A stretch of DNA of 58,281 bases from Bacteroidales bacterium (GTDB taxonomy: Bacteria; Bacteroidota; Bacteroidia; Bacteroidales; P3): positions 1 to 58,281 of the forward strand of contig JAGADZ010000016.1 in assembly GCA_017613375.1 (NCBI GenBank), written 5' to 3'. Below, one piece after another: positions 2,131 through 58,281 of this stretch. The first letter of the stretch is position 1, and the number at the start of each line of letters is the position of its first letter. The position numbers were made by a program, and so were the translations under genes. Under the pieces are notes generated by a model. That model did no database searches, was not told the DNA's origin, and was given only the letters and a program-made list of their open reading frames with translations.

Positions 2131-2134
2131 TTTA

Positions 2135-2195: not shown

Positions 2196-2244
2196 GAGCC
2201 TATTTTGTTGTGACTATTTTTCAGAAAGGAGTAATAATAAAACC

Positions 2245-4881
2245 ATGAACCTGAATAATTTTACAATCAAAGCACAAGAATCGGTACAAAAAGCAGCGGA
2301 GATAGCTCAGGCACATCAGCATCCGAGCGTCGACACTGTTCATCTGTTGAAGGGGTTGCTTAGCGAGGATGAGAACGTCACACCTTATCTCTTGAAAAAA
2401 ATGGAGGTCAATATCCCGCGTCTTTCGCAGGCTGTCGACGCCCAACTACAGTCTCTGCCACGTGTGAGCGGAGGAAGCCAATATGCAAGCAATGACCTTA
2501 ATAATACATTTGTTAAGGCTCAGCAGACTGCTACGGAGATGGGCGACGAGTTCGTCTCTGTGGAGCACCTGTTGATAGGACTTGTCAACGGTCGCGACAA
2601 CATAGCAAGGCTTCTCAAGGATGCCGGGGCATCCGACAAGCAGCTCCGTGCCGCCATCGCGGACCTCCGCAAGGGTAGCAAAGTGGGCAGCCAGACTGCC
2701 GAGGACACTTTCAACGCACTGAATAAATATGCAAAAAACCTTAACCAACTGGCTCAAAGCGGCAAACTTGACCCTGTCATCGGTCGTGACGAGGAGATAC
2801 GTCGTGTGTTGCAGATTCTGAGCCGCCGTACAAAAAACAATCCTATCCTTATCGGCGAACCCGGCGTGGGTAAGACGGCAATAGCCGAAGGAATTGCACA
2901 CCGTATCGTCAGCGGAGATGTTCCGGAGAACCTGAAGAGCAAAACTCTCTACTCTCTTGATATGGGTGCCATGATAGCTGGAGCAAAGTACAAGGGGGAA
3001 TTCGAGGAGAGACTCAAGAGTGTCATCCGCGAAATCAATGAATCCGACGGCGATATCATCCTTTTCATCGATGAGATTCATACCCTTGTCGGCGCCGGCG
3101 GTGGCGAGGGTGCCATGGATGCCGCCAATATCCTGAAACCGGCCCTTGCACGTGGCGAATTGCGTGCTATAGGTGCTACAACATTGACAGAATACCAGAA
3201 ATATTTCGAGAAAGACAAGGCTCTTGAACGTCGTTTCCAGAGTGTGCTCATCGACGAACCGGACGTCGCGGACACTATCTCTATTCTTCGTGGTCTTAAG
3301 GAACGCTACGAGGTGCACCACAAGGTGCGTATTAAGGATGAGGCTATCATCGCCGCTGCCGAATTGAGCAACCGCTATATCAGCGACCGTTTCCTGCCGG
3401 ACAAGGCCATAGACCTTATCGACGAGGCTGCTGCCAAACTGCGTATGGAGATAGACTCTGTGCCGGAGGAACTCGATGAGATAGAACGCAAGATCCGTCA
3501 GCTCGAAATTGAACGGGAGGCTATCAGCCGTGAGAACGAGCATAGCGACACTCTTGACACTGAATCGCAGCAGGCCAACAGCGACAAACTTAACCGTATC
3601 GGTCACGAGATTGGTGAACTGACAGAAGAACGGGACCAGATGAAGGCCCGTTGGCAAAATGAGAAGAATGTCGTGGAGTCCATACAATCAGAAGTCAAGA
3701 ATATTGAAAGCTATAAATTCGAGGCGGAACAGGCCGAACGGCAAGGTGACTACGGCAAGGTGGCGGAACTGCGCTACGGACGTATCAAGGAGGCCGAAAA
3801 GCATGTGGAGGATTTGAAACTTCAACTCCGTACAATGCAGGCCGACAATGCGATGATTAACGAAGAGGTCGACAGCGAACAGATAGCCGAGGTCGTGAGC
3901 AAATGGACGGGAATTCCCGTCACCCGTATGATGCAGAGCGAACGCGACAAACTGCTTCATCTCGAAGAACAGCTGCATAAACGTGTTGTCGGACAGAACG
4001 AAGCCATCGAGACTATCGCCAATGCAATACGCCGTAACCGTACAGGCCTTAGCGACGGCAAACGGCCTATAGGCAGTTTCATATTTCTCGGCACCACAGG
4101 TGTCGGCAAGACGGAACTGGCAAAGGCTTAGGCCGAGGTGCTGTTCGACGACGAGAATATGATGGTGCGTATCGATATGTCGGAGTATCAGGAACGCCAC
4201 AGTGTCAGCCGTCTCATAGGAGCGCCTCCGGGATATGTGGGCTACGACGAAAGCGGACAACTCACCGAGGCGGTACGTCGCAAACCATACAGTATAGTCC
4301 TTTTCGACGAGATAGAGAAGGCTCATCCCGATGTGTTCAATATACTGCTTCAGGTGCTAGAGGACGGCCGTCTGACGGATAACAAGGGCCGTATAGCCGA
4401 TTTTAAGAACACGATTATTATTATGACGTCAAATATTGGTAGCAACATCATCCACGAGCGTATGAGCGATGTTATGAACATCAACGACTACACCATCGAG
4501 AAAACAAAGAATGATGTCTTGGAGCTGCTGAAACAGAATATGCGACCTGAGTTCCTGAACCGTATTGACGAGATTATCATGTTCCGCCCGTTGAGCAAGA
4601 AACAGATTCGCGAGGTTGTACGCATACAGCTTGACATTGTGGCCAAAATGCTTGAGAAGAACGAGATTCTTATCAGCGCTACGGACGAGGCTGTCAATCA
4701 CCTGGCCGATATTGGCTTTGACCCTGCAATGGGAGCCCGTCCTGTCAAACGAGTTATTCAGCGTCAGATTCTCAACGAATTGTCACGTCAGATACTGGAA
4801 GAAAAAATACACACCGGTGAGAATATTATTATCGATGTCATCGACGACCAGTTCGTCTTCTACAATTCGAGCATGAAATGA
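2245..4881 (+). pseudogene. clpB: ClpB disaggregase interrupted by one in-frame amber codon
   Basis: The start at 2245 ([13 protein letters not shown]) follows an AAAGGAG box and matches ClpB; the upstream extension in this frame does not. The gene would encode 878 residues: ClpN domain, first AAA domain with Walker A GEPGVGKT (about 204-211), a coiled-coil middle domain (about 410-530), and a second AAA domain with Walker A GTTGVGKT. Codon 629 is TAG (4129-4131), three residues after the second Walker A lysine-threonine, where homologues have Leu (KALAEVLFD). The same frame then continues perfectly through Walker B VLFDEIEKAHPD to the normal end. One T-to-A change (TTG to TAG) explains it. 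A GTG at 4138 could restart but has no clear ribosome site. ClpB rescues aggregates with DnaK; the truncated form would lose the second ATPase motor. It could be a real mutation, strain variation or a sequence error. Confidence 0.93.
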
Positions 4882-45857: not shown

Positions 45858-47636
45858 ATGTCACATTTCCTGCCCATAACTCTCGAAGAAGTCAAACGCC
45901 TTGGATGGCAGACTGTGGACATTGTGCTTGTGACAGGAGACGCCTATGTCGACCATCCCTCTTTCGGTACCGCTGTTATTGGCCGCACACTTGAAGCCGC
46001 AGGATATCGTGTGGCTATCATCCCTCAGCCAAACTGGCGAGACGATTTACGCGACTTCCGCAAATTCGGTGCTCCTCGCCTTTTTTTTGGTGTCAACAGT
46101 GGTGCAATGGACAGCATGGTGAACCATTATACCGCTGCACGTCGGTTACGTCACGACGACGCTTATACTCCGGGAGGTCAGGCAGGCTTCCGTCCGGACC
46201 GGGCGGCATATGTCTATACACGTATTCTTAAACAGATATATCCACAAACACCCGTCATAGTGGCAGGAATAGAGGCCTCTATGCGACGTCTTGCACATTA
46301 TGATTATTGGGATGACAGACTCTTCCCATCAATTCTTGCCGATATCCCAGCGGATTTGCTGAATTACGGGATGGGGGAGAAGACCACCCTTAAAATTGCG
46401 AAACTGCTTGACCAAGGACTGCCGAAGGAGGCTCTATACGACTTGCCGCAAGTCGCATATCTTTCAGACACACCTCCTGAATCTGACAATGTGAAATATC
46501 TGCACAGCTTCGAGGAATGCATGCAAAGTAAGCGTGCCGAAGCAGAGAATTATCATATCATAGAACAGGAAAGCAATAAAATCGAACCAGTCACTCTTGT
46601 TCAAAAACATGGTTCACGTTTTGTCGTCGTAAATCCTCCCGAACCTCCCATGTCGACAGCGGAGATAGATGCTTCTTTCGATTTGCCCTACACACGTCTG
46701 CCACATCCCAAATACAAGAAACGCGGTCCTATTCCGGCGTTTGAAATGATTAAAAACTCCGTCAACCTTCACCGCGGATGTTTCGGGGGCTGTTCATTCT
46801 GCACCATCTCTGCCCATCAGGGCAAACAAATAGCTTCGCGCAGCCAACGCTCTATACTGGAAGAGGTTAAAAAAATGGTACAAAACCCCGAGTTTAACGG
46901 CGTTATCAGCGACCTCGGAGGTCCGTCGGCCAATATGTACCGCATGGGAGGCAAAGACAAGAATGTCTGTCTGAAATGTAGCCGATATAGCTGTATCCAA
47001 CCTTCCATATGCCAAAATCTTGAGAATGACCATCAGCCACTCATGGACCTTTATAACAGGGTTGCTGCTGTACCGGGAATCAAACATATTTATATAGGCA
47101 GCGGTATTAGATGCGACCTCTTTACCAACCAAAACCACGGTTGGGAATATTTTAACCATATCGTGAAAAATCATGTAAGCGGTAGGCTGAAGGTTGCACC
47201 GGAACATACTTGTTCGCATGTCCTGAAATTGATGCGAAAGCCTGATTTCGACCTGTTTATTGAGACGAAACACCGTTTTGACAAAATATGCAGGAATAAC
47301 AATCTCCCATATCAACTCATTCCATATTTCATAAGTTCGCATCCAGGATGCCGCCTTCAGGATATGGCGGATCTCGCCGTCAAGATGAAACAAATGGGCT
47401 ATAGGCTGGAGCAGATTCAAGACTTTACCCCAACACCCATGACCCTCTCTACAGAGATGTATTACACAGGGATCAATCCTGCCACAATGGAACCTGTCTA
47501 TGTGGCACGACATCCAAATCAAAAGAAGGAGCAGAACAATATGTTTTTTTTCTATAAGAAAGAGAGACAGTCTGATATTCGTAAATCTCTGCATAATGCA
47601 CATCTGGACAAATATATAAAACAATTATTCGGTTGA
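45858..47636 (+). CDS. YgiQ-family radical SAM protein
   Basis: 592 residues. N-terminal YgiQ domain (LVTGDAYVDHPSFGTAVIGR), B12-binding-like region, then a radical SAM core with HRGCFGGCSFCTISAHQGKQ (CxxxCxxC binding the 4Fe-4S cluster) and a YgiQ C-terminal region (TPTPMTLSTEMYYTG). The UPF0313 family has no established reaction. Independent of polA by 51 bp. Confidence 0.92.
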   Translation: MSHFLPITLEEVKRLGWQTVDIVLVTGDAYVDHPSFGTAVIGRTLEAAGYRVAIIPQPNWRDDLRDFRKFGAPRLFFGVNSGAMDSMVNHYTAARRLRHDDAYTPGGQAGFRPDRAAYVYTRILKQIYPQTPVIVAGIEASMRRLAHYDYWDDRLFPSILADIPADLLNYGMGEKTTLKIAKLLDQGLPKEALYDLPQVAYLSDTPPESDNVKYLHSFEECMQSKRAEAENYHIIEQESNKIEPVTLVQKHGSRFVVVNPPEPPMSTAEIDASFDLPYTRLPHPKYKKRGPIPAFEMIKNSVNLHRGCFGGCSFCTISAHQGKQIASRSQRSILEEVKKMVQNPEFNGVISDLGGPSANMYRMGGKDKNVCLKCSRYSCIQPSICQNLENDHQPLMDLYNRVAAVPGIKHIYIGSGIRCDLFTNQNHGWEYFNHIVKNHVSGRLKVAPEHTCSHVLKLMRKPDFDLFIETKHRFDKICRNNNLPYQLIPYFISSHPGCRLQDMADLAVKMKQMGYRLEQIQDFTPTPMTLSTEMYYTGINPATMEPVYVARHPNQKKEQNNMFFFYKKERQSDIRKSLHNAHLDKYIKQLFG

Positions 47637-47670
47637 GTTAATAGATTTGATAATAAAATAATATTTCCCA

Positions 47671-48174
47671 ATGAATCTACATATTTTTGCGTCACGTTTG
47701 ATTATTGCCCTTGTCTGCGGCATTTTGATTGGTCTGGAACGCCAATTGAGACAACGCAGTGCGGGCCTTACGACCAATTCGCTTGTCTCTGTAGGAGCCT
47801 GTTTGTTCATTCTCATTTCTGAAACGGTTATCTCCAATGCCGTCACCTCTGGAGGTCTTGTCAATAATGATAATTTACGTGTCCTCGCACAGATTGTCAC
47901 TGGTATAGGTTTCCTTGGTGCAGGTGTCATTCTCCGTGACGGATTTACCATTCACGGTCTTAATTCGGCCGCTACCCTCTGGTGTTCGGCCGCTGTCGGC
48001 TCGATGTGCGGATATGGCCTTTGGCGCGAGGCAATTATTTCTGTCTTGGTGATATTGTTTATCAACTGGATACTTAAATTTGTGGAGCGTTATTTGGAAA
48101 CACACCAGAAGAACAATCCAGCAGCCGATCCATACCAATGCGAAGAAAAAAAAGATGATATCGTCGGAAAATGA
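47671..48174 (+). CDS. MgtC/SapB-family membrane protein
   Basis: 167 residues, four to five transmembrane helices. ALVCGILIGLERQLRQRSAGLTTNSLVSVGACLF and GIGFLGAGVILRDG are family signatures. A hydrophilic tail (DPYQCEEKKDD) replaces the C-terminal cytosolic domain of MgtC proper, so it is the shorter SapB-like form. MgtC proteins affect Mg2+ stress and F-ATPase in pathogens; the role here is unknown. Confidence 0.88.
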   Translation: MNLHIFASRLIIALVCGILIGLERQLRQRSAGLTTNSLVSVGACLFILISETVISNAVTSGGLVNNDNLRVLAQIVTGIGFLGAGVILRDGFTIHGLNSAATLWCSAAVGSMCGYGLWREAIISVLVILFINWILKFVERYLETHQKNNPAADPYQCEEKKDDIVGK

Positions 48175-48183
48175 CAATTATAC

Positions 48184-48268
48184 TAATGATTAAAAAAACT
48201 GTAAAAAATGTTGGTTTTAATAATTTGATTATTAGCGAAAAAAAACTTTAATCGTTAAACTTTAACCT
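48184..48268 (+). repeat. Dispersed intergenic repeat, copy B
   Basis: TAATGATTAA start, TGTTGGTTTTAATAATTTGATT in the middle, TTAGCGAAAAAAAACTTTAA and a final CTTTAACC. It combines the middle of copy C and the end of copy A. Followed by a weak stem CTTATA/TATAAG (48281-48308) in the hydE leader. Confidence 0.5.
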
Positions 48269-48326
48269 TCACATAACCAGAGCTTATATGCCATGGTGTG
48301 CCTATAAGACATATACGTCCTGAAAA

Positions 48327-49373
48327 ATGAATATAATAGAACAAATACGCGATATCAAGGATATTACCAGAGAACAGCTGGAACTTATCCTTACCACTGA
48401 AAACAAAGAGAGTGTCGATTTTCTTAGAAGGACTGCGCGTGAAGTGGCTGACGCGGTCTATGGAAACAAGATTTTCATGCGTGGCCTTGTTGAGATATCA
48501 TCCCATTGTAAGAACGACTGTTTGTACTGTGGCCTTCGTCGCTCCAATACTACGGCTGTCCGTTATCGTCTGACGGATGAAAAAATATTGGAGTGCTGTG
48601 ATAACGGTTACAGATTAGGTTTCCGTACTTTCGTCCTGCAAGGCGGAGAAGATCCGTGGTTTGACGATACTCGCATGTGCCGGATTGTCAGTGCTATTCG
48701 TGGTAGATATCCTGACTGTGCTATAACTTTGTCTCTGGGCGAACGTTCACGTCAGAGTTATCAGTCTCTCTTTGATGCAGGTGCTAACCGTTATCTCCTT
48801 CGTCATGAAACGGCCTCGCCGGAGCATTATGCCAAATTACATCCATCGGAAATGTCGTTTCAAAACCGTATCGACTGTCTTTATACCCTTAAGGATATCG
48901 GCTACCAGGTGGGGTGCGGATTCATGGTGGGGTCACCGTACCAAACTTTCGACACACTGTATTCTGACCTGCAGTTTATTCGCAGTTTCCAACCTCATAT
49001 GGTTGGTATAGGACCGTTTATTTCGGCACATGACACCCCTTTTGCGAACCAGCCTAATGGGAAAGTCAGCTATACTCTTCGGCTGCTTGCCATTATTCGC
49101 CTGCTCCATCCGCCAGTATTGTTGCCCGCAACCACAGCGTTGGGAACACTGCATCCTCAGGGACGAGAACTTGGCATTCAGTTCGGTGCTAATGTCGTTA
49201 TGCCAAACCTGTCGCCGCGTGACCACCGAAAAGACTATTCAATCTACGACAATAAGATTTGCACTGGCGAAGAAGCTGCCGAATGCCGTGCCTGCACAGA
49301 GCAGCGTATCAGAAACATAGGGTATGAGACAGTCGTCGACAGAGGCGACTTCAATCCAAATACGGAATACTGA
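48327..49373 (+). CDS. hydE: [FeFe]-hydrogenase maturase HydE (radical SAM)
   Basis: 348 residues. GLVEISSHCKNDCLYCGLR carries the radical SAM cysteines C61, C65, C68; FVLQGGEDPWF and the C-terminal CX7CX2C (ICTGEEAAECRAC) fit HydE, including its second cluster site. It makes the organometallic part of the hydrogenase H-cluster. HydF, HydG and the hydrogenase are not in the window. Its presence indicates anaerobic H2 metabolism. Its end faces the unknown gene at 49387 with 13 bp between. Confidence 0.93.
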   Translation: MNIIEQIRDIKDITREQLELILTTENKESVDFLRRTAREVADAVYGNKIFMRGLVEISSHCKNDCLYCGLRRSNTTAVRYRLTDEKILECCDNGYRLGFRTFVLQGGEDPWFDDTRMCRIVSAIRGRYPDCAITLSLGERSRQSYQSLFDAGANRYLLRHETASPEHYAKLHPSEMSFQNRIDCLYTLKDIGYQVGCGFMVGSPYQTFDTLYSDLQFIRSFQPHMVGIGPFISAHDTPFANQPNGKVSYTLRLLAIIRLLHPPVLLPATTALGTLHPQGRELGIQFGANVVMPNLSPRDHRKDYSIYDNKICTGEEAAECRACTEQRIRNIGYETVVDRGDFNPNTEY

Positions 49374-49386
49374 TATTGTCATATCA

Positions 49387-50076
49387 TCAATAACTTGGAA
49401 TTACATGTGACACACAATACCCCTCATCGGTGTTGGGAAATTGTGCCGCTTCTTCATCAGACAATGGCCGAAGTTTATAGCCTTTGTTGTCAAGATATTG
49501 CTCGCGTAGCTCCGCGAATCCGGATTCAAGCGTCTGCAAGAAACCTCGGTTGGGCTCGGAGTGGCACATCAAATCCCATTCGGAAGGGCCAGTACAGGGG
49601 TGAAGCCCGTCAATGCTGATGCAACGCATGGTGAAATCCAATGTGATGCCGTCGAACTCCCATCCGTCGCCCAAAGTAATCTGCATTGCAGTCTTCTCGG
49701 CATTGAGATACTTGCTGCGATAGGAATGTGTCGCTCGCGAGTCGGCATGTATACAGCAGTCGAAATAAACCATATCGCCCACTCGCCCGCCATCGGGATA
49801 CGACGGATATTCGTCATAGGGCGCTGTCTCCAATAACCAAGCAATCTCGTCGTAATCGATATCCTTATTGTGCCCATGGTTTTCCTCTACCAGATATTTC
49901 CTGTTGAAGTCGAAGCCCGTCTCGCGGCACAGGTCGCGAAACCGCTTGGCAAAAGCACAAGCACGGTCGAACCGCTGCCGCTCCACTTTTAGCAGCCTTC
50001 GACCCATAAATGTTGGCTCGCCAGGGAACTCCGCCCAGTTTCCCTTGAATGTGGTGATTTCTGTCATCTGATTCAT
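49387..50076 (-). CDS. Unknown protein of the TTFxGNWA family, copy 1
   Basis: 229 residues from ATG 50076, whose ATGA overlaps the stop of a vestigial upstream frame; a second Met (50067) gives MTEITTFKGNWAEF and is equally good. No signal peptide or membrane helix. It aligns along its length with the gene at 51865: shared TTFxGNWAxF, FDRACAxAKxxRD, GxDFNRKYxVE, DYxxGGxVGDMVxF and C-terminal RPLxxxExAQxP. Acidic, cytoplasmic by sequence. Family not recognised; members here occur as tandem copies. Confidence 0.72.
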   Translation of the reverse strand: MNQMTEITTFKGNWAEFPGEPTFMGRRLLKVERQRFDRACAFAKRFRDLCRETGFDFNRKYLVEENHGHNKDIDYDEIAWLLETAPYDEYPSYPDGGRVGDMVYFDCCIHADSRATHSYRSKYLNAEKTAMQITLGDGWEFDGITLDFTMRCISIDGLHPCTGPSEWDLMCHSEPNRGFLQTLESGFAELREQYLDNKGYKLRPLSDEEAAQFPNTDEGYCVSHVIPSY

Positions 50077-50100
50077 TCAAACACACTTTTGAAAGATGTC
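50036..50100. repeat. 65-bp direct repeat, left copy
   Basis: Matches 51628-51692 at 59 of 65 positions in the same orientation. It covers the start of TTFxGNWA copy 1 and the last codons (TSFKSVFE-stop) of an otherwise lost small gene. The two copies bracket the DUF4143 ATPase gene. Confidence 0.8.
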
Positions 50101-50108
50101 ACCATTTT

Positions 50109-51383
50109 TCAGCGCAAGACTCCTATAGGGACAACCCAGACATCGTCCTGTGGTCTACGGTAACTATACTCCCCCACAGCCGTCAACACCATCTTGAAAG
50201 AGGGTTTCGGCATTTTGTCAGTGTTGATTTTATCAGCTAGACGGCATAAGGTTTCTGCCCCTTTATCAATCAACTCCGCTCCGCCAAGTTTTATTTCAAT
50301 GAGTCCGTATGTGCCGTTGCGTCGATGTAGCACAGCGTCGCACTCCAATCCCTCGGCATTGCGGAAATGGAACACTTCTCCATCCAAAGCATCGGCGTAA
50401 ACGCGCAAATCCCGTACAGCCATCGACTCAAAGAACATCCCCATTGCCTTGAGGTCGTTGATCAAATCACCAGGTCCCACATACAGTGCAGCGGCAGCAA
50501 TGCTGGGGTCCTTGAAATACCTGGTATCGGATACCTGTATTGCAGATTTACTCCTGAGGTTTGGATTCCAGGCTGGCATATCTTCAATGACAAACAACTT
50601 CTTCAGTGCATCCACATAGTCAGAAACAGTCTCGTAAGTGATAGACATATTGTCGTTCTCCTTAATGTCGTCGCTCAGCCGTTTCAGACTTACTGCCTGC
50701 CCCTGATGTCTGGCATATGAGCGCAGAAGCAATCGCGTTCTGTTGCTGTTGCGACGCGTATGGTCAACCCGATGAATGTCAGTTTTATAAATAGCCTCGT
50801 AATAGTCCCTTGCCTGATCAAGTGCAATGTCACCAGTTAGAAATGTGGCTTGTGGCCAGCCCCCACGACATATCAAGAAGGCTATTTCCTCCAAGTCAAG
50901 CGGATTGCTCTGGGGTTCTAACGGCTTGCCCTCAAACAGGTCGGTTAGGCTTACCATTCCTGTCGATTCTCCAGACTCCCACAAGCTCATTGGACGCATA
51001 CTGACACGTGCAATGCGCCCCGTTCCGCTATGTTGTATCTCTTCCTGTTCTGGAGGGACACTGCTACCTGTCAGAACAAACTGTCCGAACGACTGTCGTT
51101 TGTCAACCTCCGAGCGCACAATGTCCCACAACTGCGGTATAGTTTGCCATTCGTCGATGAGACGCGGAGTATTACCGTTTGTCAACACAGAGGGGTTGAC
51201 TTGCAGAGCAGTCTTGGCATTGGTCAGGACTGAACTATCCCCCAAATCCAGCTCACTCCGCGCTATTTGGCGTGCTGTTGTTGTCTTTCCACACCATTTT
51301 GGACCATCAATCAGCACAGCACCCTTGCCGGCCAATTTACGCTCAAGTAGCACATCTGCAATGCGTTGCTTGTATTTTACCAT
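50109..51383 (-). CDS. AAA ATPase of the DUF4143 family
   Basis: 424 residues. Walker A GPKWCGKTTT (Lys 33), Walker B RLIDEWQ, sensor LTGSS; then DUF4143 with RGGWPQA and a winged-helix section; the C-terminus has the nuclease-like series FFESMAVRDL, ECDAVLHRR, GLIEIKLG (E...D...ExK). Such ATPases are widespread and often patchily distributed, and their function is unsettled. It sits between direct repeats and carries three 23-bp iterons before its promoter, suggesting independent mobility or autoregulation. Confidence 0.9.
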   Translation of the reverse strand: MVKYKQRIADVLLERKLAGKGAVLIDGPKWCGKTTTARQIARSELDLGDSSVLTNAKTALQVNPSVLTNGNTPRLIDEWQTIPQLWDIVRSEVDKRQSFGQFVLTGSSVPPEQEEIQHSGTGRIARVSMRPMSLWESGESTGMVSLTDLFEGKPLEPQSNPLDLEEIAFLICRGGWPQATFLTGDIALDQARDYYEAIYKTDIHRVDHTRRNSNRTRLLLRSYARHQGQAVSLKRLSDDIKENDNMSITYETVSDYVDALKKLFVIEDMPAWNPNLRSKSAIQVSDTRYFKDPSIAAAALYVGPGDLINDLKAMGMFFESMAVRDLRVYADALDGEVFHFRNAEGLECDAVLHRRNGTYGLIEIKLGGAELIDKGAETLCRLADKINTDKMPKPSFKMVLTAVGEYSYRRPQDDVWVVPIGVLR

Positions 51384-51407
51384 TTTTTAGCGTCTTTTTT
51401 ACAGTTG

Positions 51408-51415
51408 CAAAGATA
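51408..51415 (-). promoter_or_regulatory. -7 box of the DUF4143 ATPase gene
   Basis: TATCTTTG on the minus strand, 24 bp before the ATG at 51383, with iterons starting about 27 bp further upstream. Confidence 0.65.
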
Positions 51416-51441
51416 CACAAAATAAACGAATTGTAAAGAAA

Positions 51442-51510
51442 ATTCCGCAACTTTTTGTAAAATTATTCCGCAATTTTTAACAAGTATATTCCGCAACTTT
51501 AGAAATCCAC
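51442..51510 (-). repeat. Three 23-bp iterons upstream of the ATPase
   Basis: On the plus strand ATTCCGCAA begins at 51442, 51465 and 51488, exactly 23 bp apart, each followed by CT or TT and a T-rich half. A partial fourth unit (TTGTAAAGAAA) precedes the first. The position directly behind the -33 region of the ATPase promoter fits a regulator or ATPase binding array, one face per two helical turns. Confidence 0.75.
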
Positions 51511-51581
51511 CGTCATTAATGGAGGTAGTAATCTCTCGATGATCCTTCGACGATGTCGACTATACGTTCCTTATTTGTGGG

Positions 51582-51659
51582 TTATTCTTGCCATAATACC
51601 ATTGGAAAAAAAGAGGCGATTTTGCAACAGTTTCCCTTGAATGTGGTGATTTCTGTCAT
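51582..51659 (-). pseudogene. 5' fragment of a third TTFxGNWA gene
   Basis: ATG 51659 starts MTEITTFKGN, identical to copy 1 through ten codons, then diverges to a short unrelated tail ending at TAA (51582). The break is where the direct repeat ends. Between here and the iterons (51511-51581) nothing else is seen. Confidence 0.65.
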
Positions 51660-51692
51660 TTGATTCAATCAAACACACCCTGGTAAGATGTC
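51628..51692. repeat. 65-bp direct repeat, right copy
   Basis: Partner of 50036-50100. It covers the first codons of the truncated TTFxGNWA copy and the last codons (TSYQGVFD-stop) of the small upstream gene. Six mismatches show the duplication is not recent. Confidence 0.8.
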
Positions 51693-51851
51693 TGCAGGAA
51701 CCGTCCGTTAAGGACAATATGTTGTTCGCCTGTGTTCAGTATCGTTGTCGTTCTGTCTTCCCCTTGATAATCGATTTTGAGGAACTTTCCATCTATCGGG
51801 ATGCGCAAGTCGCTGCCTCCCTCGTAAAGATAGATATTACTTAATATTCAT
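51665..51851 (-). pseudogene. Small (about 61 aa) gene with a 1-nt frameshift
   Basis: ATG 51851 reads MNIK then TAA, but removal of one T there joins it to an open frame of 57 codons (NIYLYEGGSDLRIPIDGKFL to TSYQGVFD) ending at 51665. The sequence is beta-rich, with no signal peptide. Its last codons also survive before copy 1 of the TTFxGNWA family, so this small gene and that family form a repeated pair. Too short and start-less for routine prediction. Family unknown. Confidence 0.55.
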
Positions 51852-51864
51852 AACGCCAACTTAT

Positions 51865-52515
51865 TTAAAATGGAACTATACGGGAAACCACACCCTGTAC
51901 TTTTTCGTTTTCATTGACATCAGGGTATTGAGCAATCTCGGCCTCTGTCAATGGTCGTATGGCATAGTCATCACGTCCCAAGATATTGTTGTGAAGTGAT
52001 TCAAAAGACTCCTTCAATGCTTTAGATACACCCATTCCCTTTGTCCCAAGATACAGCATCCAGTCGAAGGAGTAGAACTGTGGGACAAAACCACTCTTGC
52101 TGATAGTCTTCAGGTTGATATTGAATGTCACTTCTTTTAATTCAAGCTCTGCGCCATTCTTTTTGGAGCTACCAAACAATTTCCCCATGAGCGACTGGCC
52201 TGCTGGTGCAATTCCCGCCCTGATGATACAGTTGAAGAACACCATATCGCCCACACATCCTCCCGCAGGGTAATCCACATCGGATGTTTTCTCGTAGTCA
52301 ACACCTTCGCATTGTTGCCCATTCTTCTCTACGATATACTTGCGGTTAAAGTCGATGCCTAGTTTCTGACCATAATCGCGAATCTCTTTGGCGATAGCGC
52401 AGGCGCGGTCAAATTGCTCTTTAGACTTGTCGGAGAGTTCCTTTCCGTTGATTACAGGAATGCCAGAGAAATCTGCCCAATTGCCTGTAAATGTTGTTAA
52501 TTCTGTTGTGCTCAT
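51865..52515 (-). CDS. Unknown protein of the TTFxGNWA family, copy 2
   Basis: 216 residues, cytoplasmic by sequence, homologous to the gene at 49387 (shared TTFxGNWAxF, FDRACAIAKEIRD, GIDFNRKYIVEKN, CVGDMVFFNC, YAIRPLTEAEIAQYP). It differs by SLMGKLFGSSKKNG in the middle where copy 1 has a shorter charged stretch. Two conserved cysteines and acidic pairs are present but no enzyme motif is evident. It follows the PD-(D/E)XK-like gene in the same direction after 60 bp. Confidence 0.75.
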   Translation of the reverse strand: MSTTELTTFTGNWADFSGIPVINGKELSDKSKEQFDRACAIAKEIRDYGQKLGIDFNRKYIVEKNGQQCEGVDYEKTSDVDYPAGGCVGDMVFFNCIIRAGIAPAGQSLMGKLFGSSKKNGAELELKEVTFNINLKTISKSGFVPQFYSFDWMLYLGTKGMGVSKALKESFESLHNNILGRDDYAIRPLTEAEIAQYPDVNENEKVQGVVSRIVPF

Positions 52516-52575
52516 ATACTGTAATTTTTTTTAGATTATTCTTTATGTTTTCTATAATATAACGTTCGATACTTT

Positions 52576-53037
52576 TTACTTCTCCTGTAATTTATTGAAG
52601 GCTTCTTCCATTTTTTTAAAGTTGTCCTCGTTCATTTTTTTAGCTCTCTTTTTTCTATTTGACTGTTTTTTCGAATTCTTCTCAAAATAAATATTAAAGT
52701 AGACCTTAAATGGTGGTATTGTGCTAAATTCCTGAAATTCTGATGGGGTATACTCTTTAAAATCCCAAGTGTCATCTTCTCGCTCTATTGCAATAACAAA
52801 ACGAAAATGCTCTGGGTCTTCCAATGCCTTTTGCCATTCGTTCATAGTTGCACCACCAAAATATTTATCAGTATGTTTTGTTTTCTTAATTTCAAAATAC
52901 CATTTCTGGTCATCTTTCTCTGCTTCAATATCAATGGAATCATTACCCACCTTGGCAGAATACCCATTTTTCTCCAAATAATCTATATAGGCTTTTTTCG
53001 CCTTTTTGTCAGACCTATCGTTTCCTTGTGCTTCCAT
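52576..53037 (-). CDS. Stand-alone NO-VEIN/DUF3883-like PD-(D/E)XK domain protein
   Basis: 153 residues. AKKAYIDYLEKNGYSAKVGNDSIDIEAE, then KWYFEIKKTK, then MNEWQKALEDPEHFRFVIAIER: this matches the nuclease-fold pattern of DUF3883 (C-terminal NOV) domains, with candidate acids D33/D36, E49 and K51, and the invariant-type NEWxxA. The C-terminus (about 120-153) is Lys/Asn-rich and probably helical. DUF3883 domains are usually attached to large helicases or restriction proteins in defence loci; here it is alone. Catalysis is not proven: the motif reads EIK and the upstream Asp is approximate. Confidence 0.68.
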   Translation of the reverse strand: MEAQGNDRSDKKAKKAYIDYLEKNGYSAKVGNDSIDIEAEKDDQKWYFEIKKTKHTDKYFGGATMNEWQKALEDPEHFRFVIAIEREDDTWDFKEYTPSEFQEFSTIPPFKVYFNIYFEKNSKKQSNRKKRAKKMNEDNFKKMEEAFNKLQEK

Positions 53038-53128
53038 TATATTTTCTTCATTTTTTTATTGATTGGTCACTTTTCTCCAAATCATTAATAATATTCACGG
53101 ATTGAATAAAAACTCACACGGTTATACG

Positions 53129-55543
53129 CTAGCGAGTAAGCGGCACACTACTGTCGTCGGTTATTAAATACTGATATACTGTGCGTTCTGATCCGTATGA
53201 ATAATCGTCAATGCTTTTCATGTCACGTAGCCATTCTGGCCTGTCAGCATCCTTGCTAATAGTTAACAAAACACCCCAATATTTGTCATCAAGAAGATTT
53301 GATGTCTTGCCGTAATCTGGAGAAATAAGCACCACTTCCCATTTCCCGGAACACGAAACTGTCACATTTTTGTGGTCGTAGGTTGGCATACCGTAGTACC
53401 GATCATATCCGCTAATGGTCTTGTAGAATCTACCGCTTATCTCTGCACTACCACTTGACTTTAGCTCAAGCCTATTTGTAAACGATTGTTCATGGTCATA
53501 CCCTATGTATTCTTCTTTTTCCCATACTTGATTACTATATTTTGACTTTATCGCTGCCTTTTTATTATCAAACTGGCTTTCTGTAATTACGGTTCCAATC
53601 TCGGATGATCCACTATAGGCAACACCATCTGTTATCCGAAAGTCATTTAATGACAATCCATATCCGCTTAAAGATATATTTATGTCCATATTTTTTGATG
53701 GATCAGATACATACCATGTTCCAGTCTGACTTTTTCTTTCCTTATTTCGATGATAGCCACTTCCATAACTGCTATTATCATAGCTATCTACCATTGTTAC
53801 TGTAACACTATTATTTTTTTCTACAGACACCCGATAAACATCTTGGCTTTTGCTGATGTAATAGATTCCTATGGCTCTTGTTTCTGCCAACCCGGTCTTT
53901 TGATTTGTTTCTTCAACATATTCATTAAATTCTTTTATTTCATTATAGTACGTTAGTGCCGCAAAAATAGAAACGACGAACAATGCTATTATTACAAAAT
54001 ATATAGCTGTGCCGACATTTTTTGAAACAATTTTTACCTCCGGCTCTTTCCCAATAGCTGCCTGTACTCCGTATTTGCTTTTGGCAGATTCCGCTCTTTT
54101 CTTTTTAGAATCAAACAACATCAGTGCAGTTTGGTTTTTCGAATTCAGATTTGCCTGATGCCATTTCCTGGCAGTAAACAAAGAATAGAACGTAATACCG
54201 AGGCATATGATAGAAAGTACTGAGCTCCATTCGTATTCATGTCTTCCTAATGACAGCAGTAAAATGAAAAATGTGACAGCAGCTGCCGCAAAGACGCCGA
54301 ACACCCAATACCAAATAACTTGTTTCTTCCTGTATTCTTTTGCTTCTGCTTCTTGTTTTTGTTTCTTCTCGGATTCTGTCTTGTCTATTGGTCGCAATGA
54401 ATGTAAAAATGTTGCTCCATCGTTTGCCAGAACAGACACCCCATAAGATTTGCCTGAATATTTATATTCAGCCATCCATATCGGTAATAAAACACACCGA
54501 TTTACATTATATCTATAATTGTATGTATAATTTGTTCTATCGACAGACCAACCATCTGACATGTGCCATGCATCTGACGAAACTACAGCATCAACATCTT
54601 CCTCAATATCATTTTCGGCAGAGTCTTTGTTCTCATTCCACGATTCATTTCCTGATAGTTCTGCCAAAAGTAGCTCCCAATTTTCATATTGCCTTTTATC
54701 AAATTCTGATAAAAGAGTTTCCTTGTCAGAAATGTCGCGAAAATGTTGATTTATTGATATTATTTCCGGGATACTCTTTGATAAGGCCGGCAAAACAATT
54801 CGAACATCTCCTGCAGATGTCCCGTTTGCATCACGATACAAAGTTTCCCACACGGTTTTTGTACCATTTGGACGGCCATTATAATCATACGTTTGCTCCT
54901 GGTGAGATACTTGTTTGGTGAATGTAGCAGACCATTGCGCCGACCAATTGACATCAAAGATATATACTGGATAGAAAAGGCGATGTATATTTTCTATTGA
55001 AAATGACTTAAAGATATCGGTTGGAATTAAGTCCGTTATCACTAATTGTTCCACTATCTTATTTGAACACTCTTTGTCTCCAAGTTTTGGCAAAACAATA
55101 TATGAGTCAGATGTCCCTTTAATGGCATCAGTTAAATCATTAATTGCACCAGACAAAGCGCTCCATGCTGAATCCATTTCTGTGTCATCTTGTTGTGTCG
55201 GGGCATCTATCGTTGAACCACAATAAGGACATACTATAGGAAGGTCTTCCTTTGAATTAATTTTCACTGGAGCTCCACATGACCGACAGTTAATTTCTAT
55301 TTCATTTGTCGGTTGAGATAATTCATCTTTTTTCACATCCAAATTATCTGCTGGATTGAACTGGACATTAGGTTCTCCACAGTTGGGACATGAATTCAGC
55401 GCTTTGTCATACTCGTTGCCACATTCGGGGCAAACAACGTCATTGTTGGGTGCATCCTGCGTGAAAAGTTCTCCGCAGTGTGGGCATTTCTTTGCAAGCG
55501 AAGAAATCTGCTTGCCGCATTTTGGACAGGGTATTAGTGCCAT
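53129..55543 (-). CDS. Large zinc-ribbon membrane protein (YdjG-like)
   Basis: 804 residues from MALIPCPKCG (ATG 55543; a 10-residue upstream extension lacks support because the neighbour at 55578 begins MALIPCPECG too). Three Cys4 zinc ribbons: C6/C9/C20/C23, C38/C41/C52/C55, C86/C89/C105/C108. Then a soluble beta domain with FYPVYIFDVNWSAQW and LLPIWMAEYKYSGKSYGVSV, the pattern of TFIIB-type zinc-ribbon proteins such as B. subtilis YdjG; two transmembrane helices (about 412-465), a third near 515-540, and a C-terminal beta-rich domain with Ser/Tyr-rich stretches. Probably acts at the inner membrane beside the SPFH protein. Confidence 0.8.
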   Translation of the reverse strand: MALIPCPKCGKQISSLAKKCPHCGELFTQDAPNNDVVCPECGNEYDKALNSCPNCGEPNVQFNPADNLDVKKDELSQPTNEIEINCRSCGAPVKINSKEDLPIVCPYCGSTIDAPTQQDDTEMDSAWSALSGAINDLTDAIKGTSDSYIVLPKLGDKECSNKIVEQLVITDLIPTDIFKSFSIENIHRLFYPVYIFDVNWSAQWSATFTKQVSHQEQTYDYNGRPNGTKTVWETLYRDANGTSAGDVRIVLPALSKSIPEIISINQHFRDISDKETLLSEFDKRQYENWELLLAELSGNESWNENKDSAENDIEEDVDAVVSSDAWHMSDGWSVDRTNYTYNYRYNVNRCVLLPIWMAEYKYSGKSYGVSVLANDGATFLHSLRPIDKTESEKKQKQEAEAKEYRKKQVIWYWVFGVFAAAAVTFFILLLSLGRHEYEWSSVLSIICLGITFYSLFTARKWHQANLNSKNQTALMLFDSKKKRAESAKSKYGVQAAIGKEPEVKIVSKNVGTAIYFVIIALFVVSIFAALTYYNEIKEFNEYVEETNQKTGLAETRAIGIYYISKSQDVYRVSVEKNNSVTVTMVDSYDNSSYGSGYHRNKERKSQTGTWYVSDPSKNMDINISLSGYGLSLNDFRITDGVAYSGSSEIGTVITESQFDNKKAAIKSKYSNQVWEKEEYIGYDHEQSFTNRLELKSSGSAEISGRFYKTISGYDRYYGMPTYDHKNVTVSCSGKWEVVLISPDYGKTSNLLDDKYWGVLLTISKDADRPEWLRDMKSIDDYSYGSERTVYQYLITDDSSVPLTR

Positions 55544-55577
55544 AGTTTTAACTTTTTCATTTATTATAAACAATATA

Positions 55578-56504
55578 CTATGTTAAAAACGGAGGGTGTT
55601 CTCCGCCCTTTCTGACTCTTGAGTTCTTGGGATAGCCTTTTAACATGACGACGTGTTCGACAGAACCATATTTATCTCTATTCTTAAACCTAACCTCCAC
55701 CTCAAGTACCTTTGTCCCAATTACATCATCGCTCTTTGTGTACCATGCGCAATGTCTCAATTCAATATTATTTATCTTCACCTTTTTCCCATATGGCGCA
55801 TTGCAAAATGCACCAGCATATGCCTTGTCGCCTGGGATATGTTCAAGGTTCATGGTGTTATAAAGAGGTACGATGTCGTATCGCTTCGGGGTGCTGCGAG
55901 AGGAAAAGAAGCAGAAAGTGAATTGGACATACGTCATTGTATCATCTGGTCGGAGATTTATTATCTCAAAGGTATTTGATAAACGATTATCCTCGTCCAT
56001 GTAGAAATAGAATGAGGTTACTTTAGCATCTTGAGTTGCACCAGGTCTATCGAAATCGTCACCATTAGCGAAGAAGTCGTAATATTCGTAAGTTCCCTCA
56101 ACAGTTTCGTACTGCGTTTCGACAGCAGGCTCAGATGGAACTGGCTCAACTACCTCTACCGCTGTAGTCTGATCCGCAAAAGGGGATTCCGTCAGACCAT
56201 TGGAGTTCGCCTCTTCCTGAATGTTATTATCAACAGTAGGAGTGTGGCGTGATGTCTCCGTGGGGGTAATAATATCTCGCAGAAACATGAAGTACACCAG
56301 AGTTGCAACAGCAAGGACAGCAACACAATTCCATACAACTCCATTGCCACGTTTCTTTACCGGAGTGTCCTTTGTTGGATAGGGAACTTCCTTTTCTTCT
56401 GCTGGACGAAACAGCAATTCTCTCAAAGGAGCGCCACACCCAGGACATTCCTCGGCATTTGGGCTGACCATACGGCCACATTCGGGACAAGGTATCAGTG
56501 CCAT
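55578..56504 (-). CDS. Zinc-ribbon protein with one transmembrane helix
   Basis: 308 residues from MALIPCPECG (ATG 56504; 13 more residues are possible upstream). Zinc ribbon C6/C9/C20/C23, one transmembrane helix (about 55-75), a Glu/Thr/Pro-rich linker (80-140) and a beta domain containing YEYYDFFANGDDFDRPG and a cysteine-containing strand. The first 23 residues closely match the neighbour at 53129, so the two share a recent N-terminal module. Cytoplasmic ribbon, extracytoplasmic domain likely. Confidence 0.8.
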   Translation of the reverse strand: MALIPCPECGRMVSPNAEECPGCGAPLRELLFRPAEEKEVPYPTKDTPVKKRGNGVVWNCVAVLAVATLVYFMFLRDIITPTETSRHTPTVDNNIQEEANSNGLTESPFADQTTAVEVVEPVPSEPAVETQYETVEGTYEYYDFFANGDDFDRPGATQDAKVTSFYFYMDEDNRLSNTFEIINLRPDDTMTYVQFTFCFFSSRSTPKRYDIVPLYNTMNLEHIPGDKAYAGAFCNAPYGKKVKINNIELRHCAWYTKSDDVIGTKVLEVEVRFKNRDKYGSVEHVVMLKGYPKNSRVRKGGEHPPFLT

Positions 56505-56539
56505 GATATGATTTCTTTTATTGATGTAATCAGTGTTGT

Positions 56540-56902
56540 TCAAATATCAGTGTTTTTATTCGAGTCAAGAACACTACTATAAAAACCAACATTTTCTTCA
56601 ATATAAAAACATAATTTTGTGTACAATCTTATTACAGGATCGTTTCTTAACTCCATTTTTATGTTGCTAATATCATACTCAAAAAAGAAATAGGTTTTTA
56701 TAGGAGAATGTGCTCTATCAACTTCAATCTGAAAAGAATAATTAGATTTTGTTTCCAACCATATAGATATGATATTGTTTTTCTCCTTTTCAATAAAGCT
56801 CCTATCGTAGAGTTCCTCATATTTCTTTCTCCCCTCATAGACATATTCATTGTGAAGTTCTTGTGAGTCTTCTAATAAGAACTCATAGTTTATCTTGATC
56901 AT
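56540..56902 (-). CDS. Small unknown protein
   Basis: 120 residues, very AT-rich coding. Charged and aromatic (KKYEELYDRSFIEKEKNN, FFFEYDISNIKMELRND), no signal peptide or membrane helix. Six bp after the 4-TM gene and 35 bp before the zinc-ribbon gene, so part of the same transcription unit. No family recognised. Confidence 0.7.
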   Translation of the reverse strand: MIKINYEFLLEDSQELHNEYVYEGRKKYEELYDRSFIEKEKNNIISIWLETKSNYSFQIEVDRAHSPIKTYFFFEYDISNIKMELRNDPVIRLYTKLCFYIEENVGFYSSVLDSNKNTDI

Positions 56903-56908
56903 AATATG

Positions 56909-57253
56909 CTATTTAATATGTTTGCTAACGCGATGCATTACAAATAGTCCCACGACTTCTACCAGCAGAATTACCAGCGACACTATCACGCACCAATTAT
57001 CTTGCAATTGATCTTTTGAGAGGAGCATCAAAAGAAACATCACCACACCTAGGAAGGCGAAAGTAAATGGCAGCGAGACACGGAAGGCATCCTTCATAGT
57101 GATGCTTTCGGCGATATACATCAAGGCTGCAGTAAGCACCACCACAACGCTAGTGGCAACCACGTTGAAGGTGTGGTAACTGCTCAGCAACAAACCTGCG
57201 AGGATGTTGACTACCAGCACAGCAATGGTCGAAAAGAGGATGGTCTTTTTCAT
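56909..57253 (-). CDS. Small four-helix membrane protein
   Basis: 114 residues, four predicted helices (about 4-25, 30-50, 60-81, 87-108), ending in a basic HRVSKHIK. Lies between the SPFH gene (19 bp) and the small unknown. Similar four-helix proteins accompany SPFH or zinc-ribbon genes, but I know no function. Confidence 0.75.
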   Translation of the reverse strand: MKKTILFSTIAVLVVNILAGLLLSSYHTFNVVATSVVVVLTAALMYIAESITMKDAFRVSLPFTFAFLGVVMFLLMLLSKDQLQDNWCVIVSLVILLVEVVGLFVMHRVSKHIK

Positions 57254-57272
57254 CTTTGGTTACGTTTTGTTG

Positions 57273-58281
57273 TTAGACATTGGGGATGGGTGGTGGCGTG
57301 GGTTGTGCGGAAAATTCCGGCAATGTAGAAAGTGCAGCCCACTGTGGCATACCGGCTTTCCATACCAATGTGTTACCGTTCACCGTACCTTGCTGCATCA
57401 TTGTCTGAATGGTGGCAATATCGAAGGGACCTTGTTGCGCTCCTGCTACAACAACATAGTATTGCGCTTGTGGTACGGGCGGCGGTACTGCGGGTGGTTG
57501 TGTGTTGATGAATGCACCTGCGAGACCTGCCACTTGTGAGCCGATACCCACACCGGCGCCGATACCCACAGCTGTACCCATAGCACTACCACCGGTATTG
57601 CCTGCGGCTTTCTCCAACACATCGAAACTGCGGCGCATCTGGTAGTTCTCATTGCCTATGATACGCATCTCGGCTTTCGCGTCAATGGCCTCCTTTAGGC
57701 GTTGGAAACTGGCATCACTTTCGTCGACGGTGACAGCCACCACGCTGAAGAGTTGCAACTCGACACCATACATCTCAAAAACAGGCTGCAACAGTTTCTG
57801 CGCTATATCCGACAGCTCAGTTGTCTTGCTGCCGATGTTGACCACCGATGCGTTGACGGCAAGCATGGCATCACTGATGATGGATGACAGGCGGGATTGG
57901 ATAACACCCCGGAAATAGTTGGACAGCGTCACCACATCGAACGACGGCATATTACCTACGAAAGATTCGAGGAATAAGCGCGGATTACTCACACGGAAAC
58001 CATACTGGCCGTAGGCGCGAACAGGGACAATCACACCATACTTCGGATCCTCAATCTGCAACGGTGCAGCCGTTCCCCATTTACAGTCAAGCTGCATAGT
58101 TTGGTTCACGAACCATACTTCGGCAGCAAAGGGTGACTCCTTGCCGAAAGGCAGGTTGATAATCTTGTTCAGCAGCGGAATGTTCTCGCTGTTGATGGTG
58201 TAGGTACCCGACGTGAACTCATCGAGAATCTTACCACCGCGTACGAAGAAGGCCGTCTGTGCAGGATAGACAATCAGCTGA
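57273..58281 (-). CDS. SPFH-domain (YdjI-like) protein with C-terminal GYF_2-like domain, 5' end missing
   Basis: The frame is open from the right edge; 335 residues are visible and the start lies outside. The YdjI/virion-core pattern is clear: LIVYPAQTAFFVRGGKILDEF, NLPFGKESPFAAEVWFVN, MQLDCKWGTAAPLQIEDP, PVRAYGQYGFRVSN, then a helical part, a Gly/Ala-rich stretch (GTAVGIGAGVGIGS) and a Pro-rich link to a GYF_2-like domain (YYVVVAGAQQGPF...GNTLVWKAGMPQWAAL). SPFH proteins form membrane-bound oligomeric scaffolds. In Bacillus, YdjI recruits the stress protein PspA to the membrane. No PspA gene is in the window. Confidence 0.9.
   Translation of the reverse strand, partial: QLIVYPAQTAFFVRGGKILDEFTSGTYTINSENIPLLNKIINLPFGKESPFAAEVWFVNQTMQLDCKWGTAAPLQIEDPKYGVIVPVRAYGQYGFRVSNPRLFLESFVGNMPSFDVVTLSNYFRGVIQSRLSSIISDAMLAVNASVVNIGSKTTELSDIAQKLLQPVFEMYGVELQLFSVVAVTVDESDASFQRLKEAIDAKAEMRIIGNENYQMRRSFDVLEKAAGNTGGSAMGTAVGIGAGVGIGSQVAGLAGAFINTQPPAVPPPVPQAQYYVVVAGAQQGPFDIATIQTMMQQGTVNGNTLVWKAGMPQWAALSTLPEFSAQPTPPPIPNV

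Follow-up and report, generated by a model that had tools for sequence, protein, structure and literature searches.

Does the run of nine genes that starts with an SPFH gene at one end of a contig from a rumen bacterium form one fixed system, as originally predicted for the first seven of them, or do these genes differ in how firmly they belong together? SPFH proteins act as membrane organisers in all domains of life; to our knowledge, the anchoring and the recruits of the bacterial ones are mostly not known. The window, i.e. the whole stretch of 58,281 bp analysed here, is one entire contig (G000:C10), and the SPFH gene is therefore cut at its 5′ end; about 29 residues are absent, as judged by the three closest full-length relatives, which are 364 aa long and 90% identical. 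Judged from related loci, the nine genes consist of two layers, a conserved core and a variable AT-rich layer (Table 1).

Table 1. Features of the SPFH locus and of the ATPase region, with positions in the window
Feature	Position	Strand	Basis or remark
SPFH (Band_7_1) + GYF_2 protein, core gene 1	57273..58281	-	Pfam; 90%-identical relatives; C-terminus PTPPPIPNV
TM4, 114 aa, four hydrophobic stretches, core gene 2	56909..57253	-	Hydropathy; directly behind SPFH in 51/54 loci
u120, 120-aa cargo protein	56540..56902	-	No family match
321-aa protein, zinc ribbon + 1 TM	55578..56543	-	Zn_Ribbon_1 (Pfam); ATG at 56504 gives MALIPCPECG
814-aa protein, N-terminal zinc ribbons, YdjG-like middle domain	53129..55573	-	Pfam; ATG at 55543 gives MALIPCPKCG
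NOV_C (DUF3883-type) protein, 153 aa	52576..53037	-	Pfam; alignment; E-x-K kept
TTF1, TTFxGNWA family	51865..52515	-	37% identical to TTF2
Remnant of a 181-aa family (F27) member, truncated after ~50 of 185 residues	51668..51847	-	Profile E 2e-11
65-nt direct repeat, upstream copy with second TTF2 start (13 codons)	51628..51692	-	91% identical to 50036-50100
Three 19-nt repeats, 23-nt spacing, before the ATPase gene	51436..51500	-	TTGCGGAAT
AAA_14/DUF4143 ATPase	50109..51383	-	Pfam; flanked by repeat copies; not counted in the system
65-nt direct repeat, downstream copy, start of TTF2	50036..50100	-	Repeat comparison
TTF2, TTFxGNWA family	49387..50076	-	37% identical to TTF1

All nine ORFs were found in one direction at the positions claimed earlier, and a codon-based gene caller, for which three of the nine had served as part of the training, selected the identical set. 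The mostly small gaps that had been described hold from SPFH to TTF1 (-4 to 91 nt; 19 nt between SPFH and TM4) and not ahead of the ATPase gene, which is separated from TTF1 by 481 nt. Similarly, the AT-richness attributed to the whole region applied only to the stretch from u120 to TTF1 (38.5% GC), and not to SPFH plus TM4 (50.5%), the ATPase gene (49.6%) or TTF2 (51.0%), the first 49 kb of the window having 45.9% GC. An Rfam scan of positions 47000-58281 gave no match; promoter-like sites numbered 17 versus 19.7 in shuffled sequences, and terminator-like sites 9 versus 6.7 (sd 2.4).

Pfam matched the first protein to Band_7_1 (E 3e-42) and GYF_2 (E 4e-17), consistent with the YdjI-like SPFH/GYF_2 protein predicted, and the predicted 4-TM protein was recovered by hydropathy. 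Of 54 Bacteroidales loci, 51 had the TM4 gene immediately downstream of the SPFH/GYF_2 gene, and contig ends cut two of the three that did not; leaving out the five loci used in building the profile gave 46 of 49. TM4 was found in none of 26 SPFH loci of other phyla. A zinc-ribbon-like ORF was present within 3 kb downstream in 45 of 50 loci versus 111 of 1,460 control segments resampled from these same loci, and the window carries two such genes within this distance. In this sample, which consists of mutually related loci found via SPFH, many of them on MAG contigs, the SPFH, 4-TM and zinc-ribbon proteins thus constitute a conserved unit, although the zinc-ribbon proteins fall into several families and the term may cover different partners. 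The SPFH-TM4 pair was also present in named isolates, namely Phocaeicola sartorii (L159), Parabacteroides (L163) and Dysgonomonas (L203). The core was AT-richer than its flanks in 32 of 38 loci, and a low GC content is therefore not a feature of the cargo alone. It was also noticed that the identity matrices of SPFH and TM4 were correlated (r 0.75; 0 of 999 permutations as high), as is expected for any two co-inherited genes.

No clear TM stretch was evident in the SPFH protein itself, a borderline hydrophobic stretch being detected in 5 of 53 SPFH proteins (1.62-1.75; threshold 1.6). A stricter polyproline pattern in the last 25 residues, which was tried first, matched 38 of the 53, and a loose pattern in the last 20 residues matched 51, compared with 3 of 404 control ORFs. 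It is possible that this tail is a ligand for the protein's own GYF domain. Docking of cargo on GYF via polyproline was unsupported, as PPP occurred in one of 119 cargo proteins and one of 404 controls; judging from these residues, the tail of the SPFH protein is a more likely GYF ligand than the cargo. The GYF part matched the solved structure of AgmX (GltJ; 7z3c, E 8e-9), to which it is related in sequence, whereas the remainder of the SPFH protein gave no match.

The two zinc-ribbon membrane proteins sharing MALIPCP[E/K]CG were confirmed, with the motif starting at internal ATGs; hydropathy revealed one TM stretch in the 321-aa protein and three hydrophobic stretches in the 814-aa protein. 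Zinc-ribbon starts of this kind recur in the family, and MALIPCPxCG was therefore rejected as a marker of the system. The 321-aa protein was matched in 14 of 101 genomes, several times as tandem arrays; its C-terminal part had no match elsewhere among the 211 loci searched, nor had the C-terminal ~270 aa of the 814-aa protein in the fetched loci. The middle domain of the latter was common to SPFH neighbours (e.g. L028-L031, L145-L147, L165, L168 and L170). Through their zinc ribbons, the 814-aa protein gave weak PADLOC matches, the best being Cas12f (4e-5), and the 321-aa protein matched PHROGs families mostly of no assigned function (best 4e-7); comparison of the 814-aa protein with solved structures gave nothing useful.

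The closest known arrangement is the pspA-ydjGHI module of B. subtilis, with which this locus shares an SPFH protein with integral membrane partners and a zinc-ribbon TM protein in one operon. In Bacillus, YdjI reaches the membrane only with the help of YdjG/YdjH (PMC8581546); YdjH is described as carrying a TPM domain, and the Bacillus band-7 protein as having a C-terminal zinc ribbon (PMC11237479). The present locus differs in having GYF_2 and a polyproline tail in place of that zinc ribbon, a 4-TM protein with no TPM match in Pfam, and variable cargo behind the core. In line with the prediction, PspA was not found, with 0 of 21 genomes positive in a search that was positive in 9 of 14 control genomes; the host genome is only 78% complete, and the region upstream of SPFH is cut off. 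The architecture of the 814-aa protein (zinc ribbons, domain and TM) is YdjG-like by description and is shared with SPFH neighbours in several phyla; a YdjG-like zinc-ribbon protein was near SPFH in three of the 54 Bacteroidales loci, including one that had contributed to that profile, and, in other phyla, in 9 of 26 loci. PSP-associated band-7 operons likewise combine a band-7 protein with membrane partners, and abbreviated ones without PspA are mentioned by Ravi et al. 2024 (PMC11237479), but in the portion of that paper available these carry YqiJ/YuaF, sometimes with an AAA+ ATPase, and neither the GYF_2-4TM pair nor the cargo is named.

Behind the core, the genes were found to change rapidly. 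The 54 Bacteroidales SPFH loci, some of them short, yielded no match to u120, TTF or the C-terminal part of either zinc-ribbon protein, and the NOV-type protein was found in one of them, so one seven-gene system is not supported; of the gene order expected to be conserved, SPFH-TM4-zinc ribbon stands, with u120, NOV and TTF almost never found behind it in these loci. The three closest loci contain different genes in the cargo position. At least one of the first four cargo genes was common to 20 of 39 locus pairs at 80-99.5% SPFH identity, 20 of 76 at 65-80% and 30 of 332 at 55-65%. The cargo was lower in GC than the flanks in 36 of 38 loci, and lower than the core in 37 of 45. Some cargo families also occur without SPFH-TM4, beside a radical-SAM/SPASM gene (L058 and L238).

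The 153-aa protein scored 24.9 bits with NOV_C (PF13020; curated cut-off 22.1), in agreement with the DUF3883-like domain predicted, and retains the E-x-K pattern; it differs from the known NOV_C proteins in being a stand-alone protein of 153 aa inside an SPFH operon. With this active-site pattern in place, the protein may cut nucleic acid, but nothing shows it to be essential. Its relative in the SPFH-TM4 locus L204 lacks E-x-K; in the other four NOV-carrying loci read, a WYL-type gene adjoined NOV or lay one gene off, as confirmed by Pfam in three of the four. The protein u120 was unmatched in Pfam, PADLOC, NCBIfam and PHROG, and its relatives (40%) occurred in two genomes, with no SPFH within the stretch read. 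The TTFxGNWA proteins are paralogues as predicted, and neither these nor the 181-aa and 288-aa cargo families had a Pfam match. Scans of genome and viral contigs for TTF DNA patterns gave 89 and 87 matches, of which not one was confirmed, and a search of phages and plasmids with TTF1 by tblastn found nothing; scans of this kind detect close relatives only. Whole-genome searches located two TTF relatives outside the window (L100 and L238); that in L238 is situated between members of F4 and F85 (the latter a shorter, 107-aa relative), families that are SPFH-locus cargo elsewhere. A common origin of TTF with F4, F9, F27, F85, u120 or NOV was rejected, as profile comparisons linked only F4 and F9. 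Comparison of TTF and of the NOV-type profile with solved structures gave nothing useful.

The AAA ATPase was confirmed as AAA_14 plus DUF4143, and its family has four matches in the host genome, one of them short. Since it is flanked by two copies of a 65-nt repeat, each a TTF2 start, the ATPase gene looks like a later insertion. It also gave the only strong PADLOC match of the window (PDC-S01, a candidate class). Intact F27 genes are present in the SPFH loci L090/L155 and L092/L156 and also in L058; the window holds a 5′ fragment of a gene present in two of its three closest loci.

We consider it probable that the locus represents a PspA-free, YdjGHI-like membrane platform of Bacteroidales with exchangeable, lineage-specific cargo. 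As YdjG/YdjH hold YdjI in Bacillus, so the 4-TM protein, perhaps along with YdjG-like zinc-ribbon proteins, would keep the SPFH protein at the inner membrane. The SPFH protein would polymerise via its SPFH domain, with its GYF domain assisting by binding the polyproline tail of the next subunit; both the zinc-ribbon proteins and the cargo, here consisting of u120, the TTF pair and the NOV-type protein, may be partners or clients tuning the platform to lineage-specific envelope threats. However, YdjG and YdjH are likened by description only, TM4 lacks both a TPM match and counterparts in the 26 loci of other phyla, and sharing an operon is no proof that the cargo acts with SPFH. It is possible, though doubtful, that the core is a housekeeping envelope module and that NOV, TTF and u120 landed by chance in an AT-rich spot, as suggested by u120 and one TTF relative lacking an adjacent SPFH gene in other genomes, by the different neighbours of NOV relatives and by the failure to find u120, TTF or either C-terminal domain in the 54 loci; the short gaps from SPFH to TTF1, the position of the L238 TTF relative and the recurrence of NOV in one SPFH-TM4 locus argue against chance.

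A diversifying anti-phage or anti-competitor system, in which SPFH would sense membrane damage and cargo including the NOV-type protein would be effectors or sensors under arms-race selection, seems unlikely. Its patchy presence (the close SPFH type occurred in 5 of 190 family genomes), several chromosomal surroundings, the finding of none of SPFH, TM4 and cargo beside hydE in any of the 8 relatives read, AT-rich, fast-changing cargo, NOV-type proteins in the window and L204, WYL regulators near NOV relatives and a truncated SPFH in G331 fit such a conflict, but the cargo of relatives gave two weak PADLOC family matches among 101 proteins and few Pfam effector domains (with one PDDEXK_9 and one DUF559 match), and the NOV relative in L204 lacks E-x-K. 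The window matched no known anti-phage defence system in PADLOC, and a PHROGs scan of six window proteins gave one weak match for NOV and none for four, so phage sensing, proposed originally, gained no support. Only tentatively, SPFH-GYF/4TM can be regarded as a Bacteroidales chassis on which TTF, FKNELSINSYH tail-anchored, 181-aa, 288-aa and NOV-type cargo is exchanged, in the manner of a diversifying conflict system that works at the membrane and has no relation to known defence families. That the nine genes are one fixed undescribed system is highly improbable: the common strand and small gaps across the first seven genes speak for it, but the set was unmatched among the 54 loci and the 190 family genomes, the fixed composition being refuted within the genomes searched, and the ATPase looks inserted.

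The compact SPFH-4TM pair in named isolates offers a simple test system for anchoring and for a GYF-polyproline self-assembly switch, and its rapidly changing cargo supplies uncharacterised families that may turn out to be new kinds of membrane-linked effector or sensor. In reading the loci, with no systematic count, a protein kinase gene was also seen upstream of SPFH in L172, L173, L177 and L204.

The nine minus-strand genes of the cluster were found placed as in the original prediction; from the 58281 side, they encode an SPFH/GYF_2 protein, a 114-aa protein with four hydrophobic stretches (TM4), a 120-aa protein without Pfam, PADLOC, NCBIfam or PHROG match (u120), 321-aa and 814-aa zinc-ribbon proteins, a NOV_C protein, TTF1, an AAA_14/DUF4143 ATPase and TTF2, the TTF pair belonging to the TTFxGNWA family. 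Since the window is a complete contig (one of 78 in a 1.78-Mb assembly estimated to be 78% complete), the SPFH gene runs off its end, with approximately 29 residues missing relative to 364-aa relatives. Genes behind the core (SPFH, TM4 and a zinc-ribbon gene) are referred to as cargo. The cluster adjoined hydE (NCBIfam rSAM_HydE, E 9e-169). HydE was present in 55 of 59 same-genus genomes, and no SPFH, TM4 or cargo gene was found near hydE in eight same-genus genomes read (HydE 79-89% identical, 5 to 19.5 kb each); therefore, the cluster is accessory at the hydE site. A distant ATPase relative (20%) adjoined hydE in L266, the sole such case among the eight regions.

Features of the window and of loci from relatives
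Feature	Sequence	Position	Remark
Nine-gene cluster	window	49387-58281	minus strand
Direct repeat, copy 1	window	50036-50100	65 nt
Direct repeat, copy 2	window	51628-51692	65 nt
Short repeats	window	51436-51500	upstream of ATPase gene
F27 remnant	window	51668-51847	codons for first ~50 residues
clpB (by eye from sequence)	window	2122-4881	two ORFs, split by an in-frame stop around 4130 that is either genuine or a sequence error
Truncated SPFH (133 aa)	L152 (G331)	3404-3805	without TM4
Tandem zinc-ribbon array	L038	1035-6601	
Tandem zinc-ribbon array	L059	7304-10518	
Tandem zinc-ribbon array	L067	9268-10798	
F27/F85/F4 without SPFH	L058	2091-9774	near radical SAM/SPASM gene
F85/TTF/F4 without SPFH	L238	7495-12447	near radical SAM/SPASM gene

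Window proteins and protein parts joined end to end matched 12 of the 190 family genomes, own genome counted, and SPFH was present in 30 at E 1e-10. The close full-length SPFH type (at least 50% identity) was confined to five of the 190, i.e. the window genome, G301, G412, G413 (two loci) and G338, and G331 retained just a fragment (92% over 71 residues) in an ORF without TM4, probably a locus decaying in a close relative. Scanning genome_contigs (84,980 species) with a close-type SPFH profile yielded 107 relatives, from which the best 80 were retained: 54 counted as Bacteroidales by record title (L155-L207 and L214, with L155, L176, L206 and L207 titled 'Bacteroidetes bacterium' only) and 26 from other phyla. 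Nearest among these 80 were the rumen MAGs RUG12409, RUG197 and RUG12171. The sample was found via SPFH and consists of interrelated loci, largely from MAGs; a few assemblies contribute two loci, and L155, L156, L176, L206 and L207 coincide with L090, L092, L094, L093 and L091, respectively.

Among the best 80 of the 107 relatives, 51 of the 54 Bacteroidales loci (46/49 without the five profile-source loci) had a TM4 profile match immediately after SPFH, compared with 0 of the 26 loci from other phyla. The three exceptions were L205 and L214, both cut by a contig end, and L193, in which a zinc-ribbon gene stands about 40 nt after SPFH with no TM4 between. Of the 50 loci with at least 1.2 kb available downstream, 45 had a zinc-ribbon-like ORF on the same strand within 3 kb, versus 111 of 1,460 control segments drawn from the same loci by resampling. 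The SPFH and TM4 identity matrices (52 sequences) correlated with r 0.75, reached by 0 of 999 permutations, although some correlation is expected for any co-inherited gene pair. The proposed system is upheld in its SPFH, TM4 and zinc-ribbon unit but not in its cargo: u120, TTF and the C-terminal parts of the 321-aa and 814-aa proteins had matches in 0 of the 54 Bacteroidales loci and NOV in one (L204), absence being weak in the 11 loci that have under 3 kb of sequence after the core. The order in L204 was SPFH, TM4, F9-like, F4-like, 165 aa, NOV-like and 283 aa, and its NOV-like copy lacked E-x-K. A protein-kinase gene (Pfam Pkinase in L172, L204 and L097) near a ~190-aa partner was noticed upstream of SPFH in L172, L173, L177 and L204; the pair also occurred in L097, a contig carrying a u120 relative.

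The genes behind the core vary among SPFH loci. Three loci with 90%-identical SPFH all had a ~245-aa tail-anchored protein (F4) and a ~215-aa zinc-ribbon protein (F9) sharing a domain with F4 (hhalign 94%); two of them held a 181-185-aa F27 plus a metallophosphatase, and the third a 107-aa relative of the 288-aa family F85. Locus pairs sharing any of the first four cargo genes numbered 20/39, 20/76, 30/332, 7/538 and 0/5 at SPFH identities of 80-99.5%, 65-80%, 55-65%, 45-55% and 30-45%, respectively, as judged from a codon-based caller, which in 8 of 54 loci, including L204, found no gene after the core. With cargo boundaries set by an ORF caller that had window genes as training data, 36 of 38 loci had cargo GC lower than that of the flanks and 37 of 45 had it lower than that of the core, the core also being below the flanks in 32 of 38. 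The predicted AT-rich region of the window held for the cargo (38.5% GC) but not for SPFH plus TM4 (50.5%). The window also retains an F27 remnant (profile E 2e-11), a scar of the same cargo slot. A congeneric genome, G305, has F27 together with a metallophosphatase of the same type by sequence behind a different cassette (zinc ribbon, L,D-transpeptidase, F4-domain zinc ribbon, radical SAM/SPASM, F85), and the stretch read contained no SPFH.

The ATPase, included in the original prediction, was left out of the system, because the 65-nt direct repeat (91%), which duplicates the TTF2 start, brackets its gene, the family has four matches in the window genome, and relatives elsewhere adjoin unrelated genes; we read it as a probable later arrival. 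Upstream of it were three TTGCGGAAT repeats at 23-nt spacing. GTTGCGGAATWT occurred at five genome sites, two of them within these repeats, and a control pattern at 0.

The window SPFH copy had no hydrophobic stretch, and in 48 of 53 SPFH relatives no stretch exceeded the threshold, the other five being borderline. The GYF_2 domain of SPFH is C-terminal with polyproline close by; a loose polyproline pattern matched within the C-terminal 20 residues in 51 of 53 SPFH proteins versus 3 of 404 control ORFs (a stricter pattern, tried first, 38/53), and PPP was found in 1 of 119 cargo proteins versus 1 of 404 controls. GYF domains have proline-rich peptides as ligands. It is possible that SPFH subunits are joined by GYF-polyproline contacts, in which case zinc ribbons, TM segments or the SPFH domain would be likelier points of attachment for the cargo than GYF. 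TM4 may serve as the SPFH anchor, similar to the situation of Bacillus YdjI, whose membrane localisation depends on YdjG/YdjH (PMC8581546). As to cargo function, the default reading is envelope stress, with conflict a serious alternative.

YdjG-like zinc-ribbon proteins directly followed SPFH elsewhere in the order (L028, L029 and L031), or came after it with an intervening gene or gap (L030, L145-L147). With a YdjG-like profile, 3 of the 54 Bacteroidales loci (L168, L170 and L165, the last among the sequences used for the profile) and 9 of the 26 others had a match no more than 5 kb from SPFH. The middle domain of the 814-aa protein is a member of this YdjG-like family. The claimed absence of PspA was borne out, PspA_IM30 being detected in 0 of 21 genomes (14 at least 90% complete) and 9 of 14 control genomes. 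Excerpts of PMC11237479 cover band-7 operons linked to PspA, the ydj operon of Bacillus and abbreviated operons that lack PspA; unlike the window core, none of those described there has the GYF_2-4TM pair. Excerpts of PMC9239133, PMC10936438 and PMC7159879 gave no account of the locus, and a literature search on SPFH plus GYF (Bacteroides, zinc ribbon, phage shock, anti-phage) returned nothing on it; coverage was mostly open-access, with no bioRxiv preprints, so novelty is unproven. A different SPFH module kept the same gene order in four genomes (L136, L141, L144 and L032): SPFH-zinc-ribbon fusion, TM-type protein, 660-750 aa protein, two ~290-345 aa paralogues and a 324-aa protein with a weak bactofilin match in L141. 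The tandem arrays in the table have a common MALIxCPECG-like zinc-ribbon stretch and differing C-terminal parts.

The TTFxGNWA family is very rare: own genome counted, a single-sequence search matched 1 of 198 order genomes and a three-row profile 2 of 393. Pattern scans of genome_contigs and viral_contigs, reaching close relatives only, and tblastn against phages and plasmids gave no confirmed member. One further relative among the family genomes, in G282, had no adjoining SPFH. Another, in G081, had no SPFH in a 20-kb stretch; it was located between relatives of F85 and F4, which are SPFH-locus cargo elsewhere, and this one locus is therefore the best hint that TTF is part of the cargo pool, not a stray neighbour. 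Radical SAM/SPASM surroundings, as in L058 and L238, are possibly a second home of the F27, F85, F4 and TTF families.
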